25,057 nucleotides of DNA from a virus, in the IMG/VR virus record IMGVR_UViG_3300028831_000079, positions 1 through 25,057 of that record; one strand, given 5' to 3'. The notes under the pieces were generated by a model. The model did not search any database. It had not been told where the DNA came from and saw nothing but the letters and a program-made list of their open reading frames with translations. Shown here in pieces: positions 19,368 to 25,057 of the stretch (its first letter is position 1; each line of letters opens with the position of its first letter). Position numbers and translations under genes: made by a program.

Positions 19368-20090
19368 GTGCCCGACGAACTTTCGTTGGACTCGCTTGTC
19401 GCGAAGTTATTTCTAGAACGTCGCGACGTGAAAGCGATCCAAAAATCAACAGGTGAGTACAACCCTGTCAAAACCAAGTGGACGCGAGCCGATATCCAGG
19501 CTCATCTCGATGAAACCCGTACTTACGGACATTACCTCGTAGATCCGACAACCGAACGGTGTCGGGTCTTTTGTTTTGATATCGACCTGAAGGCCGAGTA
19601 CCGGGCTGAATTTCTTTCAGCAGATACAGAACGGGTCGCATGGCTGAACGCCGAACTGAGGTGTTTCGCCAAAAGCTTTACAGAACGTATCAAGGATTTG
19701 TTGGGCATCCCGACAGCAGAACTGTTCTCGGGAAACAAGGGCGTGCATGTGTACGGGTTCACGGGCAGTGAACCCGCCAGTGATGTACGGGACGCAGCCG
19801 ATCTCGTTCTTCAGTCTTTCAAACAGAAAGACGGAACGCCGGAATACTTCCCGACCAAAGGTCAACACTTCTTCGGCCACTACTCATACCCCGAGATTGA
19901 AGTCGAACTCTATCCCAAGCAGAAAGAGATGAACGGGAAAGAGTACGGCAACCTTCTCCGCCTCCCGTTGGGGGTCAACCGCAAATCTGGCCGAAAGTCC
20001 TTCTTTTACGATACCGCGGCTCCCCTCTGGGAGTTCACGCCGGTTGACCCTTTAGGAGTTCTCCAGAATGTCGCTGAAGGACAAGCTTGA
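19368..20090 (+). CDS. Archaeo-eukaryotic-type primase (TOTE-like AEP family)
   Basis: The 240-residue protein makes primers for DNA replication. Motif I is CFDIDLK (Asp71, Asp73) for metal binding. Motif II is SGNKGVHVYGF (121-131) with His127. The third metal/nucleotide region is EVELYPKQ (178-185), followed by GNLLRLPLG (194-202). The PKQ...GN.L.LPLG pattern is characteristic of the primase domain of TOTE conflict systems and related phage primases. The start is GTG at 19368 with AGAGG eight bases upstream. It overlaps the next gene by 23 bases, so the two are translated together. It contains only the catalytic domain; the zinc ribbon and motor are supplied by the next gene. It may also act as a polymerase, as some AEPs do, but that cannot be seen. 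Confidence 0.88.
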   Translation: MPDELSLDSLVAKLFLERRDVKAIQKSTGEYNPVKTKWTRADIQAHLDETRTYGHYLVDPTTERCRVFCFDIDLKAEYRAEFLSADTERVAWLNAELRCFAKSFTERIKDLLGIPTAELFSGNKGVHVYGFTGSEPASDVRDAADLVLQSFKQKDGTPEYFPTKGQHFFGHYSYPEIEVELYPKQKEMNGKEYGNLLRLPLGVNRKSGRKSFFYDTAAPLWEFTPVDPLGVLQNVAEGQA

Positions 20091-21963
20091 AGCCGCGCGG
20101 GCAAAAGTCGGACTGCCGGAGGCTACCACCCCTCCGACAGTTCACGACCCTGAATGCATACCCGACGATCCGTATGAGGGTTCGGATCGTACCGACCTCA
20201 AGGAGCACGTAACTCTACTTGAGGGATACCAGAAGTATATCTCGCCGCTTAAGGATGGATTCTATCCGGTCCACCGGGCAAGTCAACGCGAAAGCATCAA
20301 AGTTCGGTGTCCGTTTCCCGGCCACGTAGACCGTTCACCTTCCGCTTGGGTGAACTCCGACAAGGATCTTGGGCACTGCGGAGTCTGTGAGTGCGGGTTC
20401 GATTTATTCGACCTTGCCGCCATCGAACTGGGCTACTCGGTCCCGGCGTACCGGCGTGACAAGGACGCATTCAAAGAAGTAGCCGGGAAGATTGCGGAAG
20501 ACTTCGGCCTTGAAATTAAAACCACGATTTCAGGCACAACTATCACACGATCAGATTATGAGGATGACGCCCCTCCTGGTGACCCCCCTGGCTCCGAACA
20601 TGCCGGTTCTGCCAGTTCCGATACCACCATTGACCTGACGGACCCGCCGCCTCCGCCAGATGAACATATGGCCGAGGTGGCGGATCTGAGTGATTTCCGC
20701 TGGGGAGATGTTGAAATTGACTACCCGGAAATCGACTATTCGGTCTGCGTAACGCCGGGAACCTTTATTGATTCATGGGTCAATCTTGGCGAGTCACTCA
20801 ACTATACGAAGGCGCACTTTCTTTTCACAGCCCTGCCGGCCATCTCGCTGGCGGTGAGGCGACACCTCATCGGTTCAGATGAACCGGCGATCCGTAACAA
20901 TCTGTATGTCGTTCTACTGGGCGAGTCCGGTTCAACCAAGACAAAAGCGCAAGCCCTGTTCATCCGGCTCATTAAGCAGGCGTTTGATCCCGAAGATCCC
21001 GAGATGGGGGTCAGGCTGTTTGTGCCGATTTCAGGCGAACACCTGATCGAAGAAATGATCGTGGACCCCGCTGCCGGGAACGTCGATAACCCCGGTTGCA
21101 TCATCACCAACGAGTACGCCAGATTGGCTCAGATCATGGACCGGCCAGGGTCCACGATGGAGACGTACCTTCAAGACTTTTATGACAACTGGGAGCACCT
21201 CAAGCACCCCCGAAAAGGAATAGCGCCCCACCACCAGCTCTGCATGGTGACGACCACCCAACCGGACGCGGTGAAGGATCACCTGAAGAAAGAGCACGTT
21301 CAATCGGGATACGCTAACAGATTAATCTTTTCTTGGGGCCCCCCTGGAAAACCTGATGCTTGGAACAAAACGGTTGATCTTGGTCCGCACGTGAAGCTTC
21401 TCCAGGAGATTTACGCTCATTACGCGAAGTTGACAGTTACTGAAACTGTACCCACTCCTGAGGCTCGGGATTACTGGGAGCAGTTCCTGAATGACGTAAT
21501 TATCCCCGACAAGCGGTCTTCGACACGACTGCTAACACGTGTAGACCTTCACCTGAAGAAGCTGTTCAACCTCTTTCAAGCCAACGAACTGTCGCCAGAG
21601 GTGAACCTCCACCACGTCGAACAGGCTTGCTCGCTGTACCCCTACCTCAAGAAATCCGCCGAGTTTGTGCAAGGCAAAATCGGTTTCGGGCTTCACGAGG
21701 ACTGCCATGACGACATCGCTTCGTATCTGAAGCGGAAGCGTTATCAGAACACGAAGCGCCTCGTTGATGCCGTCCGCAAGCGCGGCCATCAATACCCTGT
21801 CGTCCATGCCGTCCTCAACATGATGAAAGCTCTTGAGGAAATCGACACCTGCAAGGTCAAGGGTCAGAGCGTCTGGTACTTGACCGATTCCGGCAAACCA
21901 GCCGAAGCGGCTCGCGAAACGAGTTCGACCACTAGTAAGAGAGCTTCGCGGAAAATTCCGTAG
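20068..21963 (+). CDS. Primase-associated zinc-ribbon helicase/ATPase (DUF3987-like)
   Basis: The 631-residue protein starts at the ATG at 20068, with AGGAG eight bases upstream inside the primase gene. Residues 75-125 are a CHC2-type zinc ribbon (C81, H86, C104, C107 in RCPFPGHVDRSPS and LGHCGVCECGFD), normally the template-reading part of DnaG primases. A Ser/Asp/Pro-rich linker (160-200) follows. Residues 225-540 are a P-loop ATPase: Walker A is GESGSTKTKA (285-294), an acidic Walker B-like CIITNEYARL is at 344-353, and a likely arginine finger is in GYANRLIFSW (414-423). The C-terminal 80 residues look like a winged-helix domain. With the upstream AEP catalytic protein it probably forms a split primase-helicase. 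Confidence 0.88.
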   Translation: MSLKDKLEAARAKVGLPEATTPPTVHDPECIPDDPYEGSDRTDLKEHVTLLEGYQKYISPLKDGFYPVHRASQRESIKVRCPFPGHVDRSPSAWVNSDKDLGHCGVCECGFDLFDLAAIELGYSVPAYRRDKDAFKEVAGKIAEDFGLEIKTTISGTTITRSDYEDDAPPGDPPGSEHAGSASSDTTIDLTDPPPPPDEHMAEVADLSDFRWGDVEIDYPEIDYSVCVTPGTFIDSWVNLGESLNYTKAHFLFTALPAISLAVRRHLIGSDEPAIRNNLYVVLLGESGSTKTKAQALFIRLIKQAFDPEDPEMGVRLFVPISGEHLIEEMIVDPAAGNVDNPGCIITNEYARLAQIMDRPGSTMETYLQDFYDNWEHLKHPRKGIAPHHQLCMVTTTQPDAVKDHLKKEHVQSGYANRLIFSWGPPGKPDAWNKTVDLGPHVKLLQEIYAHYAKLTVTETVPTPEARDYWEQFLNDVIIPDKRSSTRLLTRVDLHLKKLFNLFQANELSPEVNLHHVEQACSLYPYLKKSAEFVQGKIGFGLHEDCHDDIASYLKRKRYQNTKRLVDAVRKRGHQYPVVHAVLNMMKALEEIDTCKVKGQSVWYLTDSGKPAEAARETSSTTSKRASRKIP

Positions 21964-22004: not shown

Positions 22005-22044
22005 GCGTTTTCGCAGGTCAGCCGGTCTTTTTGTGTTTTTTTTT
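22005..22044 (+). terminator. Possible terminator after the replication operon
   Basis: After the helicase stop there is a small GCG-TTTT-CGC hairpin (22005-22014) and an alternative CCTGC/GCAGG pairing (21979-21983 with 22013-22017). These are followed by T-rich DNA with T5 (22028-22032) and T9 (22036-22044). The stems are weak, so termination is plausible but unproven. Confidence 0.38.
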
Positions 22045-22131
22045 GTTCGGCCCTTACGTGATTGGAAATCCAACACTTTTAATGGGGGTGTAGGTATGTG
22101 AATGTAACAAAATATACTCTGACCTGCTGTT

Positions 22132-22457: not shown

Positions 22458-22627
22458 TATGTACGGGGGGCGACAAGAGAACGAGCGCTCTGGCCGGCAG
22501 CCTCGATAAATCTTTGCCCGGTTCACGAACGAGGTCAACTGCCTCGCCGGCCTCACGAGCAACACGAACAACACAAACCGCCGATAATCGCCATTATCGG
22601 TCGGTCGTGATCAGTAGCTCACTGGCC

Positions 22628-22636
22628 TTATCCACA
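22628..22636 (+). promoter_or_regulatory. Consensus DnaA box TTATCCACA
   Basis: The nine bases are an exact match to the strongest bacterial DnaA box. It lies 28 bases after a perfect 8-bp-arm palindrome and downstream of the primase-helicase operon. A single copy can occur by chance in 25 kb, so the location is the main support. Confidence 0.5.
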
Positions 22637-22825
22637 GTGTCAGGCCAGGCCAGCGTGTTACACGAACACCAATAGCAACAATTGCGACGCGTCGACCCTC
22701 CCGCGCTGGCGCGGTGCCGGATCAGCAGGCCAGCAGGCCAGCACGCGCCAGCGGTGTCGGATCAGCAGCGCGGCACCTGCCGATAACGCGCACCTTAACG
22801 ATTACTGAGAAAGTTCCCGAACAAA

Positions 22826-22855
22826 TTGACCTTTCACAAGGCCACGCGCTAAGCT
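22826..22855 (+). promoter_or_regulatory. Possible promoter for the repeat-containing gene
   Basis: TTGACC (22826-22831) and TAAGCT (22850-22855) are 18 bases apart in a short AT-richer island within very GC-rich DNA. The -10 is poor. Transcription would start about 65 bases before the ATG at 22929. Confidence 0.3.
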
Positions 22856-22928
22856 TGCTTCGCGGCGCGGAGGTGCCGCACCGGAGGCCACGTGCCTACC
22901 GTCCGATCCGACACCGGAGGAAATGACA

Positions 22929-23924
22929 ATGCGCAATCCGACCAGCAAGGCCAGCGACACCACTACCGATCAGGAGGCCAGCGACACCGTGACCACTACC
23001 GACACCGCACCGGAGGCCAGCGACACCGTGACCACTACCGACACCGCACCGGAGGCCAGCAGCGAGGCCAGCGACACCGCTACCGACCAGCAGGCCAGCG
23101 ACACCGCCGAACCTTTGACGCACGAGCAGCGCGTGGCCGCATGGCTCGCGATCGACACCGCTGGCACGGGGCACCTGTCGCTGGTCGATCAGCAGGCCGT
23201 GTACGGTGCCACGCGCAAGGCCAAGGATCGGGAGGCCGTGGTCGCGCTGCTGGGTAAGGCGATCAGCGACGCGCTGGCCGCTACCGACTACGCGAAAGCG
23301 GGAGCCGCGTCCGCGCTGCTGAACCTCGTGAACGCCAGCGACGCGCCCGTGGACCCCGTGGGGGAGGCCTTGCACGCGCTGCTTACCTACTCCTACGCGT
23401 CCGCGTCGCTGCTGGCCTCGCTTGACGAGGGTACGCGTGCCAAGGTCACGAGCGCGCTGGCCGAATCGCTGGCCGCGAACCCGGTCGCGCCGGAAGGGTT
23501 CGAACCCTCCCCCGGTTTCGCCCCTTGTGGGAGCAAGGCCAGCAAGGGCACGCGCAAGGCCAGCAGCAAGGCCAGCGGAACGTCGGACAAGCCGCGCGCT
23601 GGCAAGGGTTGGGTTAGTGCGTTCGTGTCCCGCGTGATTCCCGCGGACGGTAGCGCGATGCTGCTGTCCGAAATGGAAAAGGCCGACGCGGGAATGCTGC
23701 TCGCTGGCCTGCCCTACCGTCCTAGCCTCGGGGCGATCACCGCGTGCGTCAAGGGTCCGAACCCTCCCGCTGGCGTTTCGGTCACCACGGTTCGGAATGG
23801 TGACAAGGACCAACTCGCGGCCAAGGTGTCGGACGCTAGCGCGTTCGTGGTCGCGGACATTCCTGCCGATCCCCACGGTGCCAGCGACACCGCACCGGAG
23901 GCCAGCAGCGAGGCCAGCAAGTAA
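22929..23924 (+). CDS. Unknown protein rich in Ala-Ser repeats encoded by GGCCAGC words
   Basis: The 331-residue frame is placed at the ATG at 22929 because GGAGG (22916-22920) is eight bases upstream; an ATG six bases earlier is too close. Residues about 6-55 are low-complexity Ser/Thr/Asp/Ala, including a 39-bp exact tandem duplication (22976-23053). A helical Ala/Leu-rich domain follows (THEQRVAAWLAIDTAGTGHL to about residue 185), then a Lys/Ser/Ala linker (KASKGTRKASSKASGTSDKP). A C-terminal domain (WVSAFVSRVIPADGSAMLLS, then VSVTTVRNGDKDQLAAKVSD) leads to a terminal EASSEASK tail. GCCAGC is nearly always read as Ala-Ser. Strong GC3 bias and a good ribosome site support coding. I do not recognise a family; no catalytic or membrane motif is visible. 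Confidence 0.75.
   Translation: MRNPTSKASDTTTDQEASDTVTTTDTAPEASDTVTTTDTAPEASSEASDTATDQQASDTAEPLTHEQRVAAWLAIDTAGTGHLSLVDQQAVYGATRKAKDREAVVALLGKAISDALAATDYAKAGAASALLNLVNASDAPVDPVGEALHALLTYSYASASLLASLDEGTRAKVTSALAESLAANPVAPEGFEPSPGFAPCGSKASKGTRKASSKASGTSDKPRAGKGWVSAFVSRVIPADGSAMLLSEMEKADAGMLLAGLPYRPSLGAITACVKGPNPPAGVSVTTVRNGDKDQLAAKVSDASAFVVADIPADPHGASDTAPEASSEASK
22976..23053 (+). repeat. 39-bp tandem repeat, two exact copies, inside the Ala-Ser-rich gene
   Basis: Units 22976-23014 and 23015-23053 are identical and encode a 13-residue repeat (EASDTVTTTDTAP in phase). A third, divergent GGCCAGC unit follows at 23054. The unit length is a multiple of three, so copy change would keep the frame. 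Confidence 0.9.
23494..23513 (+). repeat. Dispersed 20-bp element, copy 1 (contains GGGTTCGAACCC)
   Basis: AAGGGTTCGAACCCTCCCCC matches 18 of 20 bases of a second copy at 23751-23770. Here it is read GAA GGG TTC GAA. The core is a 12-bp palindrome that looks like a tRNA T-arm, but no tRNA can be folded around it. Confidence 0.75.
23751..23770 (+). repeat. Dispersed 20-bp element, copy 2
   Basis: AAGGGTCCGAACCCTCCCGC is the partner of 23494-23513. It lies in the same gene but in a different reading frame (AAG GGT CCG AAC), so the similarity is at DNA level and not due to a repeated peptide. Confidence 0.75.
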
Positions 23925-23934
23925 CGAGCGATAC

Positions 23935-23967
23935 GGTGCCCCGTGGTCGATCCGACCACGGGGCACC
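23935..23967. repeat. Perfect 15-bp-stem hairpin after the Ala-Ser-rich gene
   Basis: Arms 23935-23949 and 23953-23967 (GGTGCCCCGTGGTCG and its exact complement) leave a three-base loop ATC. It starts 10 bases after the stop codon. There is no T-run, so it is not a classical terminator, but it would block or protect RNA. Its right arm shares CACC with the next hairpin. Confidence 0.85.
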
Positions 23968-24016
23968 TGCGCAGGAGGCCACGCGGGACCATTCCTGCTG
24001 GCCTCCTGCGCAGGTG
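23964..24016. repeat. Long hairpin with 18-bp perfect arms overlapping the previous hairpin
   Basis: Arms 23964-23981 and 23999-24016 are perfect complements. The 17-base loop contains a further stem (GCGGGA with TCCTGC, one G-T pair), giving about 24 pairs with one bulged C. Four bases (23964-23967) are shared with the upstream hairpin, so the two cannot both be fully formed. The arms contain the GGAGGCC and GGCCTCC words of the repeat vocabulary. Confidence 0.85.
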
Positions 24017-24056
24017 CCACTACCGATCCGATCCGACACGAACGAAGGGGATACCG

Positions 24057-24221
24057 ATGATTCCGACACTGCTTATGGTCCGATCTACCGAATGGGAGGG
24101 TCATCCCACGTGGACAGTGGCCGCGCGGATGCCAAACGGCGCGATCGCGCTGGCATCGTTCACCGCGTGCGCGTGTCTCGCTTGCCAGCAGGCCAGCGAC
24201 CAGCAGGAGGCCAGCAAGTGA
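24057..24221 (+). CDS. Small unknown protein with repeat-derived C-terminus
   Basis: The 54-residue product starts MIPTLLMVRSTEWEGHPTWT at an ATG preceded by AAGGGG six bases upstream. After a short beta-like body there is a Cys-containing segment (FTACACLACQQAS) and a tail QQASDQQEASK encoded by two GGCCAGC words. The stop overlaps the next start as GTGA. The motif TCCGATCCGACAC lies 17 bases upstream of the start, as it does before the 22929 gene. No family is recognised. Good ribosome site and tight coupling support expression. Confidence 0.62.
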   Translation: MIPTLLMVRSTEWEGHPTWTVAARMPNGAIALASFTACACLACQQASDQQEASK

Positions 24222-24490
24222 ACGCCAGCGACCAGCAGGCCAGCGAAAAGCGCGCGAACCTCGTGCGCGCCTTGTGGGACGCGGGTTACACGAATTTCGA
24301 GGCCGGGGCAATCGCCAGCGCGGCGGCCGTGGTCGCGGACAGTTTGCGCAGGTTCGGCATTGATTCCGCCGGGGAACCTCCTGCCGCGAACGAACACGGG
24401 GGGATCATGAACCGCGTACTTTGGGACGTTGGCACCGTGGGCGCGAACGCGCTCGTGGCCGCGCTTACCGACCAGCAGGCCAGCAAGTGA
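24218..24490 (+). CDS. Small unknown helical protein with repeat-derived ends
   Basis: The 90-residue frame starts at a GTG (24218) that overlaps the upstream stop. The ribosome site GGAGG, seven bases before the start, is part of a GGAGGCCAGC repeat word. The N-terminus is (V)NASDQQASEKRANLVRALW and the C-terminus LTDQQASK, both written with GGCCAGC or GCCAGC words in the Ala-Ser frame. The centre (YTNFEAGAIASAAAVVADSL) is helical and Ala-rich and may fold as a small helical bundle. The stop overlaps the next GTG as GTGA. No family is recognised. Confidence 0.6.
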   Translation: MNASDQQASEKRANLVRALWDAGYTNFEAGAIASAAAVVADSLRRFGIDSAGEPPAANEHGGIMNRVLWDVGTVGANALVAALTDQQASK

Positions 24491-24660
24491 CCGCGCTGCT
24501 TTCAATGGCCGTGCAAGCCGCGGACTCGCTCGCGACAGGTTGGCCGTGGTGCTGGCTTACGGTATGCGAGCAGCGCGGGTTCGTGCTCATTTGGGACGCC
24601 AGCACGCGGCAGGCCACGGTAGAAACGCTGGCCTGCTGGCAGGAGGCCAGCACGCGGTAA
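24487..24660 (+). CDS. Small unknown Trp/Cys-containing protein with repeat-derived C-terminus
   Basis: The 57-residue frame starts at GTG 24487, overlapping the upstream stop by four bases. It has only a weak CAGG ribosome site, so coupled translation is likely. An ATG at 24505 is an alternative start. The body GWPWCWLTVCEQRGFVLIWD, then ATVETLACWQEASTR, looks like a short beta-hairpin protein. The last residues are coded by a GGAGGCCAGC word. It completes a three-gene chain (24057-24660). No family is recognised. Confidence 0.52.
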   Translation: MTALLSMAVQAADSLATGWPWCWLTVCEQRGFVLIWDASTRQATVETLACWQEASTR

Positions 24661-24679
24661 CGCCAGCAGGCCAGCAGGT

Positions 24680-24715
24680 GCCAGCGCGGGAGGCTACCTA
24701 GCCTCCCGCGCTGGC
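24680..24715. repeat. 36-bp near-perfect palindrome (17-bp arms)
   Basis: Arms 24680-24696 and 24699-24715 are exact complements around a CC centre. The right arm plus three bases (CCTCCCGCGCTGGCGCG, 24702-24718) also occurs at 22697-22713, where the repeat zone begins. It lies 19 bases after the last gene and could end transcription or form a cruciform. Confidence 0.88.
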
Positions 24716-24748
24716 GCGTGCGTACCTGCCACGTGAACCGATCAGGAG

Positions 24749-24794
24749 GCCAGCAGGAGGCCAGCGCGGCACCTAGCCGCGCTGGCCTGCTGGC
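24749..24794. repeat. Long hairpin with 12-bp and 7-bp stems
   Basis: GGCCAGCGCGGC (24759-24770) pairs exactly with 24776-24787, with a five-base loop ACCTA. Outside it GCCAGCA (24749-24755) pairs with 24788-24794, leaving a GGA bulge. The apex ACCTAGCC is shared with the palindrome at 24680-24715. Confidence 0.85.
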
Positions 24795-25057
24795 GCGCCT
24801 AGAGGCCAGCAGCGAGGCCAGCGCGGGAGGCCAGCAGGCCAGCGCGGCCACGCGCCAGCAGCGAGGCCAGCAGGCCACGCAGGAGGCCAGCAGCGAGGCC
24901 ACGCGCCAGCGAGGCCAGCAGGCCAGCGCGGGAGGCCAGCAGCGAGGCCACGCGGACCGATCAGGAGGCCAGCAGCGAGGCCAGCAGGCCAGCGCGGGAG
25001 GCCAGCAGCGAGGCCAGCAGGCCACGCGCCAGCAGGAGGCCAGCAGCGAGGCCAGCA

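Follow-up and report, generated by a model that had tools for sequence, protein, structure and literature searches.

The window examined here is the whole of IMG/VR virus record IMGVR_UViG_3300028831_000079 (25057 bases), and our subject is the last 2.4 kb of this phage contig, to which a dense cluster of the short word GGCCAGC (about 19 copies per kb) is limited. The cluster lies downstream of a primase and a helicase gene and occupies four small genes, here numbered 1 to 4, together with the hairpins and non-coding DNA between and beyond them (Table 1).

A word-packed right arm

GGCCAGC has 52 exact matches in the window against 4.7 expected from dinucleotide shuffles, both this word and the repeat statistic used below having been chosen after the data were seen. 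Forty-six of the copies lie between 22648 and the right edge, 38 on the + strand and eight on the − strand; the left 22479 bases contain only six, all on the + strand. The initial annotation had described a strand-biased word that recurs across genes, their junctions, hairpins and intergenic DNA and is sporadic upstream, and had proposed that its density be compared with the rest of the contig. Each of these points was borne out, no such density being found elsewhere in the contig, and the cluster, which had been thought to begin at about 22697, is real but starts at 22648. Markov models of order 1 to 3 trained on the left part predict 0.3–0.5 + strand copies for a stretch of equal length. When trained on the word region itself, an order-2 model gives a mean of 2.8 and a maximum of 9 such copies in 200 trials, and an order-3 model, which of all the models comes closest to the observed number because it nearly memorises the word, gives a mean of 19 and a maximum of 30. 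All 38 + strand copies in the region sit inside the exact 8-mer AGGCCAGC. Two longer words occur exactly where they had been annotated, CCGATCAGGAGGCCAGC starting at 22966, 24738 and 24957, and CCTCCCGCGCTGGCGCG at 22697 and 24702.

The word modules have been duplicated locally. Gene 1 contains an exact, in-frame tandem duplication of 39 nt (22973–23060), and the tail of the region (24907–25057) is made up of 33- and 66-nt near-tandem units with 80–90% match. The earlier statement that this is not a simple tandem repeat holds for most parts of the region, which are irregular, but not for these two; since no regular unit length and spacing runs throughout, CRISPR had been rightly dismissed. Identity between the flanks of copies drops with their distance, from 0.475 at 40–150 bp to 0.355 beyond 1.5 kb, random pairs giving 0.28. 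As a general measure of repetition we used the share of 9-mers present at least three times in 2 kb, both strands being counted. Its peak in the window is 0.262, against 0.008 for an order-2 null and a contig median of 0.0015.

Inside genes the word keeps to one frame: 21 of the 22 genic copies share a codon phase, in which those on the + strand read [K/Q/E]-Ala-Ser, and it is presumably because of this reading that the word is tolerated there. For Ala-Ser, genes 1–4 use GCC AGC 21 times out of 27, far beyond expectation from their other Ala and Ser codons. Gene 1 specifies a word-rich, acidic and Thr-rich N-terminus, then a Lys-Ala-Ser linker, and a C-terminus ending in EASSEASK. Genes 2–4 (24057–24660) are linked by GTGA overlaps, and the last codons of gene 2 contain AGGAGG, placed 7 nt ahead of the GTG with which gene 3 starts inside gene 2. 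The products of genes 1–3 all end in ASK because one module makes the gene end; at the junction of genes 2 and 3 it supplies AGGAGG, the ribosome site, as well. Only at this junction is use of the word as a ribosome site clear, most copies lying elsewhere.

The GC content steps up at about 22500–22700, from 0.38–0.55 before it (0.38 just before) to 0.66–0.77 in the word region, and GC3 is 0.75–0.83 in genes 1–4 versus 0.58–0.68 in the five large left genes tested. In the terminal array the spacers between copies of AGGCCAGC are A, AGCGA, AGGA and GCGGGA, a variant, AGGCCACGC, is also present, and there is nearly no T; the + strand of the last 217 bases (24841–25057) has one T only.

Table 1. 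Features of the window from the primase gene to the right edge of the contig
Feature	Position	Strand	Basis or details
Primase, AEP type	19368..20090	+	Pfam AEP-TOTE 1.4e-13; phrog_5362 9e-61
Helicase, DUF3987 type, the final large gene ahead of the words	20068..21963	+	phrog_5311 1.5e-42
Inverted pair of GCAGGTCAG motifs, one per strand at the two ends	22012..22126		Same pair in ReqiDocB7, Gmala1 and L181, colinear spacing
Palindrome CCGATAATCGCCATTATCGG	22581..22600		Kept in relatives beyond the motif pair
First non-coding word cluster, including CCTCCCGCGCTGGCGCG at 22697-22713	22648..22776	+	Word search
Gene 1, 333 aa	22923..23924	+	ORF
Hairpin directly after gene 1, terminator-like	23935..23967	+	Fold -33.9 kcal/mol, z -6.2
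Second strong hairpin, arms with AGGAGGCCA / TGGCCTCCT	23962..24018	+	20-nt perfect inverted repeat; -59.2 kcal/mol, z -10.4
Gene 2, 54 aa, C-terminus QQEASK	24057..24221	+	ORF
Gene 3, 90 aa, starts VNASDQQAS, ends DQQASK	24218..24490	+	ORF
Gene 4, 57 aa, ends QEASTR	24487..24660	+	ORF
Hairpin made of words, CTAG near the loop, holds second CCTCCCGCGCTGGCGCG	24666..24729	+	31-nt arms, 84% complementary; -58.8 kcal/mol, z -8.4
Hairpin made of words, arms with AGGCCAGCGCGGC / GCCGCGCTGGCCT	24754..24792	+	-37.4 kcal/mol, z -3.9
Non-coding GC-rich array, truncated by the contig edge	24802..25057	+	Irregular tandem of AGGCCAGC

The same arm in related phages

Judged by its genes the phage is an uncultivated relative of the Rhodococcus, Gordonia and Tsukamurella phages ReqiDocB7, GMA3 and Gmala1, a kinship which the initial annotation had overlooked along with the tandem duplications. 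Its primase shows 34–43% identity to those of ReqiDocB7, Perlina, Trogglehumper, Gmala1, Mbo2 and TIN2, and tblastn searches with the helicase gave matches only in Rhodococcus and Gordonia phages. The terminase, portal, protease and capsid genes lie on the opposite strand, as in Trogglehumper, and the homologous primase and helicase genes adjoin this divergent block, an arrangement by which we define the group. Reynauld and Trogglehumper have been grouped with DocB7, Mbo2 and several Gordonia clusters (PMC13313380). Alignment of the primase against IMG/VR yielded 80 relatives; searches of the same database with helicase and terminase peptides found no close ones.

The DNA between the helicase gene and the word region holds elements conserved in this group. 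In the window, ReqiDocB7, Gmala1 and the contig L181 an inverted pair of GCAGGTCAG motifs, 106–211 bp apart, is followed 383–462 bp later by the palindrome CCGATAA-N6-TTATCGG, in colinear order downstream of the helicase; GMA3, Perlina and Jumbo retain parts of this arrangement. The palindrome is present as a single copy in each of ReqiDocB7, Perlina, Jumbo, Gmala1 and GMA3, always in non-coding DNA downstream of the helicase, and bacterial control DNA (296 kb) contains no copy of it. In the window, 47 bases separate its end from the first word of the cluster. Motif pair and palindrome together are candidates for a replication origin or for an early control region, and the conserved pair in particular may function as the origin; no earlier description of them was found in the accessible parts of the literature on the group.

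None of the relatives examined has GGCCAGC in comparable excess. Ten of the 11 phage relatives tested show a repeat peak in the right arm well over their own median, several of them with a rise in GC, and in each case with other words, such as CCTCGGC in Mbo2, CCGCCGC in Jumbo, CGCTGAG in Gmala1 and AGAAATG in Perlina. The eleventh, Trogglehumper, was scored in its left part only and has no comparable peak there. By the 9-mer statistic these right-arm peaks reach 0.04–0.19 and order-2 nulls average 0.000–0.032; because bacterial control loci go up to 0.083, the values for TIN2, Orchid, Hotorobo and Woes are within the control range. A comparison of peaks on the two sides of the primase, at equal lengths, covered 39 loci: the window, one cultured phage record and uncultivated relatives. 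The downstream side has the higher peak in 28 of them and six are ties (Wilcoxon p 8e-6, only a guide since the loci are related).

This class of peaks is mixed, because some of them (ReqiDocB7, Reynauld) are gene leaders and not GC-rich arrays. Small genes at L105 29000–35850, L106 27000–34000 and L111 38000–45981 are preceded by repeated leader modules that resemble start-associated sequences, for instance ACACACCGAGACAAGGGG (Reynauld) and CCACCGAGAGTGAGGCTAGA (ReqiDocB7).

The strongest peak in the set of uncultivated-relative loci belongs to L157, which is Gordonia phage GMA3. Its genome (KR063279) has 51.3% GC and carries at about 66420–67030, after the conserved gene 91 and a hairpin, an array of 16 units of 37 bp with 76% GC. 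The genome is complete and was sequenced at 1200-fold coverage (PMC4524720). A second array (L157 6292–6505) consists of 15 units of 14 bp (ATATGGGTACCTGT). Gene 91 specifies a conserved acidic protein (phrog_6708/15295; gene 84 of Gmala1, gp081 of ReqiDocB7) with a SLGRGPKGQGRKPK-like motif which is found throughout the group, as at L109 37395–38288, L107 35086–35859, L112 36099–36803 and L197 6696–7448; in Gmala1 and GMA3 a strong hairpin follows its gene.

Origin of the repeats

We consider it probable, though by no means assured, that the words belong to a repeat region, cryptically simple and amplified locally, which lies in the fast-evolving arm just downstream of the primase-helicase genes. 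This reading is supported by the tandem duplications, the greater likeness of flanks in neighbouring copies, the height of the 9-mer peak over its null, the right-arm peaks of relatives with words of their own, the GMA3 array, and the inverted-repeat region noted earlier in five phages of this kind (PMC4563357). Short GC-rich modules (8–40 bp, with AGGCCAGC as their core) would have been repeatedly duplicated and shuffled in this arm, most probably through slippage during replication and recombination over short homologies near the presumed origin, and each phage of the group would thereby acquire its own dominant words. That the last 2.4 kb are packed with one word would be due to their adjoining the replication genes, where this family of actinobacterial phages accumulates short repeats. 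Genic copies may persist where the in-frame [K/Q/E]-Ala-Ser falls in termini, linkers or disordered protein ends, and other copies where AGGAGG supplies a ribosome site or where hairpins form; most would have no individual function.

Four observations weigh against amplification of this kind. The 8-bp core is nearly free of one-base variants, 38 exact copies being accompanied by only five one-mismatch relatives (about the background expectation), whereas its flanks, including the base at −2, are variable. Since a drifting array should show more decay, the array would have to be young. The choice of GCC AGC suggests that the DNA word itself may be under pressure. In the DNA examined, roughly half of the uncultivated relatives are without a strong repeat peak. 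Finally, gene 1 has only weak colinear similarity to the conserved right-arm family (ReqiDocB7 gp081, GMA3 gene 91). Its local profile score is 22.1, the highest of 25 shuffles reaching 18.9, and global tests fail; although the two look colinear to the eye, homology is statistically unsupported, there is no PHROG match, and the likeness is no more than suggestive.

Because of the invariant core and the codon choice, the main rival is that AGGCCAGC is a selected site, forming near the presumed origin an oriented array for a phage-encoded protein such as a repressor, a replication initiator or a nucleoid-type protein, with private pairs of protein and site in each phage. Variable flanks around a fixed core, copies that follow the direction of transcription 38:8, word-specific codons for Ala-Ser, and positions at gene starts and ends and between genes that recall the stoperators of Cluster A phages would all suit such an array. 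Its spacing is not uniform, however, other linked words increase along with AGGCCAGC, part of the copies are explained by tandem duplications, and some 19 sites per kb within 2.4 kb is unlike stoperators, which are 13–14 bp long and genome-wide. We regard a binding-site array as a possibility of some weight, if a doubtful one. More tentatively still, every phage of the group might possess a private, oriented, exactly conserved word in the arm by its origin, together with a rapidly changing phage protein for replication, transcription or packaging that recognises it. Word and protein would then diverge jointly between sister phages, and AGGCCAGC would be the densest case, shaping the neighbouring proteins. 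The roles suggested in the initial annotation, namely a propagating element, a recombination or packaging signal, a protein-binding array or decoy sites, are conjectural. A signal defined by the host (Chi-like or similar) or a packaging signal common to the group is unlikely because the repeats in the same arm of relatives use different words; ReqiDocB7 and Reynauld both grow on R. equi and their words differ.

The step in GC and the higher GC3 of genes 1–4, for which no homologs were found (gene 1 having no Pfam or PHROG match), might suggest that a right end of 69% GC from another actinobacterial replicon was joined by the assembler to a phage of 55% GC. We consider such a chimera unlikely since the window has, ahead of the region, the motif pair and the palindrome that are conserved in relatives; a join, if there is one, would fall between about 22600 and 22900. 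These elements and the like array of the completely sequenced GMA3 also speak against an assembly artefact, which the initial annotation had named as a refuting case. In addition genes 1–4 lie on the strand expected for the arm, a similar GC jump exists in the complete GMA3 genome, and no other source was found among 84,980 prokaryote species, plasmids, phages and IMG/VR. A 20-mer had 38 chance matches in the 84,980 prokaryote genomes, 19-mer and triple-word patterns gave only chance matches and simple tandems in IMG/VR, blastn and tblastn searches of phages and plasmids for the word vocabulary found nothing, and the literature matches listed for GGCCAGC were unrelated papers only. A selfish short module inserting into genes and spacers, for which the palindromic elements inside Rickettsia genes offer a comparison, might account for a 17-bp word and related 29-nt forms in both coding and non-coding places. 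Yet the copies are nested pieces of 8–40 bp at one locus. Neither the ends of an element nor target duplications nor single-copy empty sites were seen, and this origin appears very improbable. In agreement with the initial annotation, which recognised no insertion element, 22480–25057 contains no transposase gene or ends of an insertion sequence or other mobile element. Least credible of all is that the word is mere codon bias of Ala-Ser-rich disordered proteins: the single phase of the genic copies would fit, but the words are densest in non-coding DNA (24661–25057), where their phases are mixed, and GCG is the favoured Ala codon of genes 1–4 outside Ala-Ser.

Comparison with known repeat systems

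Cryptically simple DNA is slippage-derived and irregularly enriched in short motifs. The window resembles it in its scrambled short motifs, spread over coding and non-coding DNA, its tandem duplications and its local similarity, and differs in having a core word with almost no decay. The start-associated sequences of Cluster K mycobacteriophages are repeated short words, including a ribosome site, which precede small genes. The gene 2/3 junction has this character, but the word does not stand before most start codons of the arm. Stoperators of Cluster A/CA actinophages are likewise short asymmetric sites disposed along transcription, between genes and over gene ends; those of Cluster A are described as one-directional and either intergenic or over gene termini (PMC13313380). 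They differ in sequence and length (13–14 bp) and in being spread genome-wide at about 25 per genome, whereas the window has no such genome-wide array and its word is confined to the last 2.4 kb.

Closer parallels are found within the group. The 37-bp array of GMA3 is likewise built of short GC-rich modules, follows a hairpin and lies in the arm beyond the helicase in a phage with lower GC, although it uses other words and is mostly a regular tandem, while the array in the window is irregular and enters genes. In ReqiDocB7, GTE7, GordTnk2, Gmala1 and GordDuk1 a long non-coding stretch with inverted repeats close to the right end has been called unusual, no explanation being offered in the available text of that report (PMC4563357). 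Repeat-rich DNA at the right end, earlier noted for a few Gordonia and Rhodococcus phages, thus spans a larger group that includes uncultivated phages; its words vary from phage to phage and may spill into genes. It offers a case of short-word turnover, whether by a mutation process or by a co-evolving site and protein, beside a likely phage origin, and such an arm would account for contigs that end or seem foreign there. With the inverted-repeat region of those five phages the window shares the place downstream of the helicase, the richness in repeats and hairpins and, in ReqiDocB7 and Gmala1, the motif pair and palindrome; it differs in that the region is reported as non-coding and 1.2–2.5 kb long, while in the window small genes too are filled with one dominant GC-rich word and the step in GC is more marked. 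The word region is best read as the probable result of recent local duplication and shuffling of a short GC-rich module, of a kind already reported as repeat-rich non-coding DNA and here spilling into genes.

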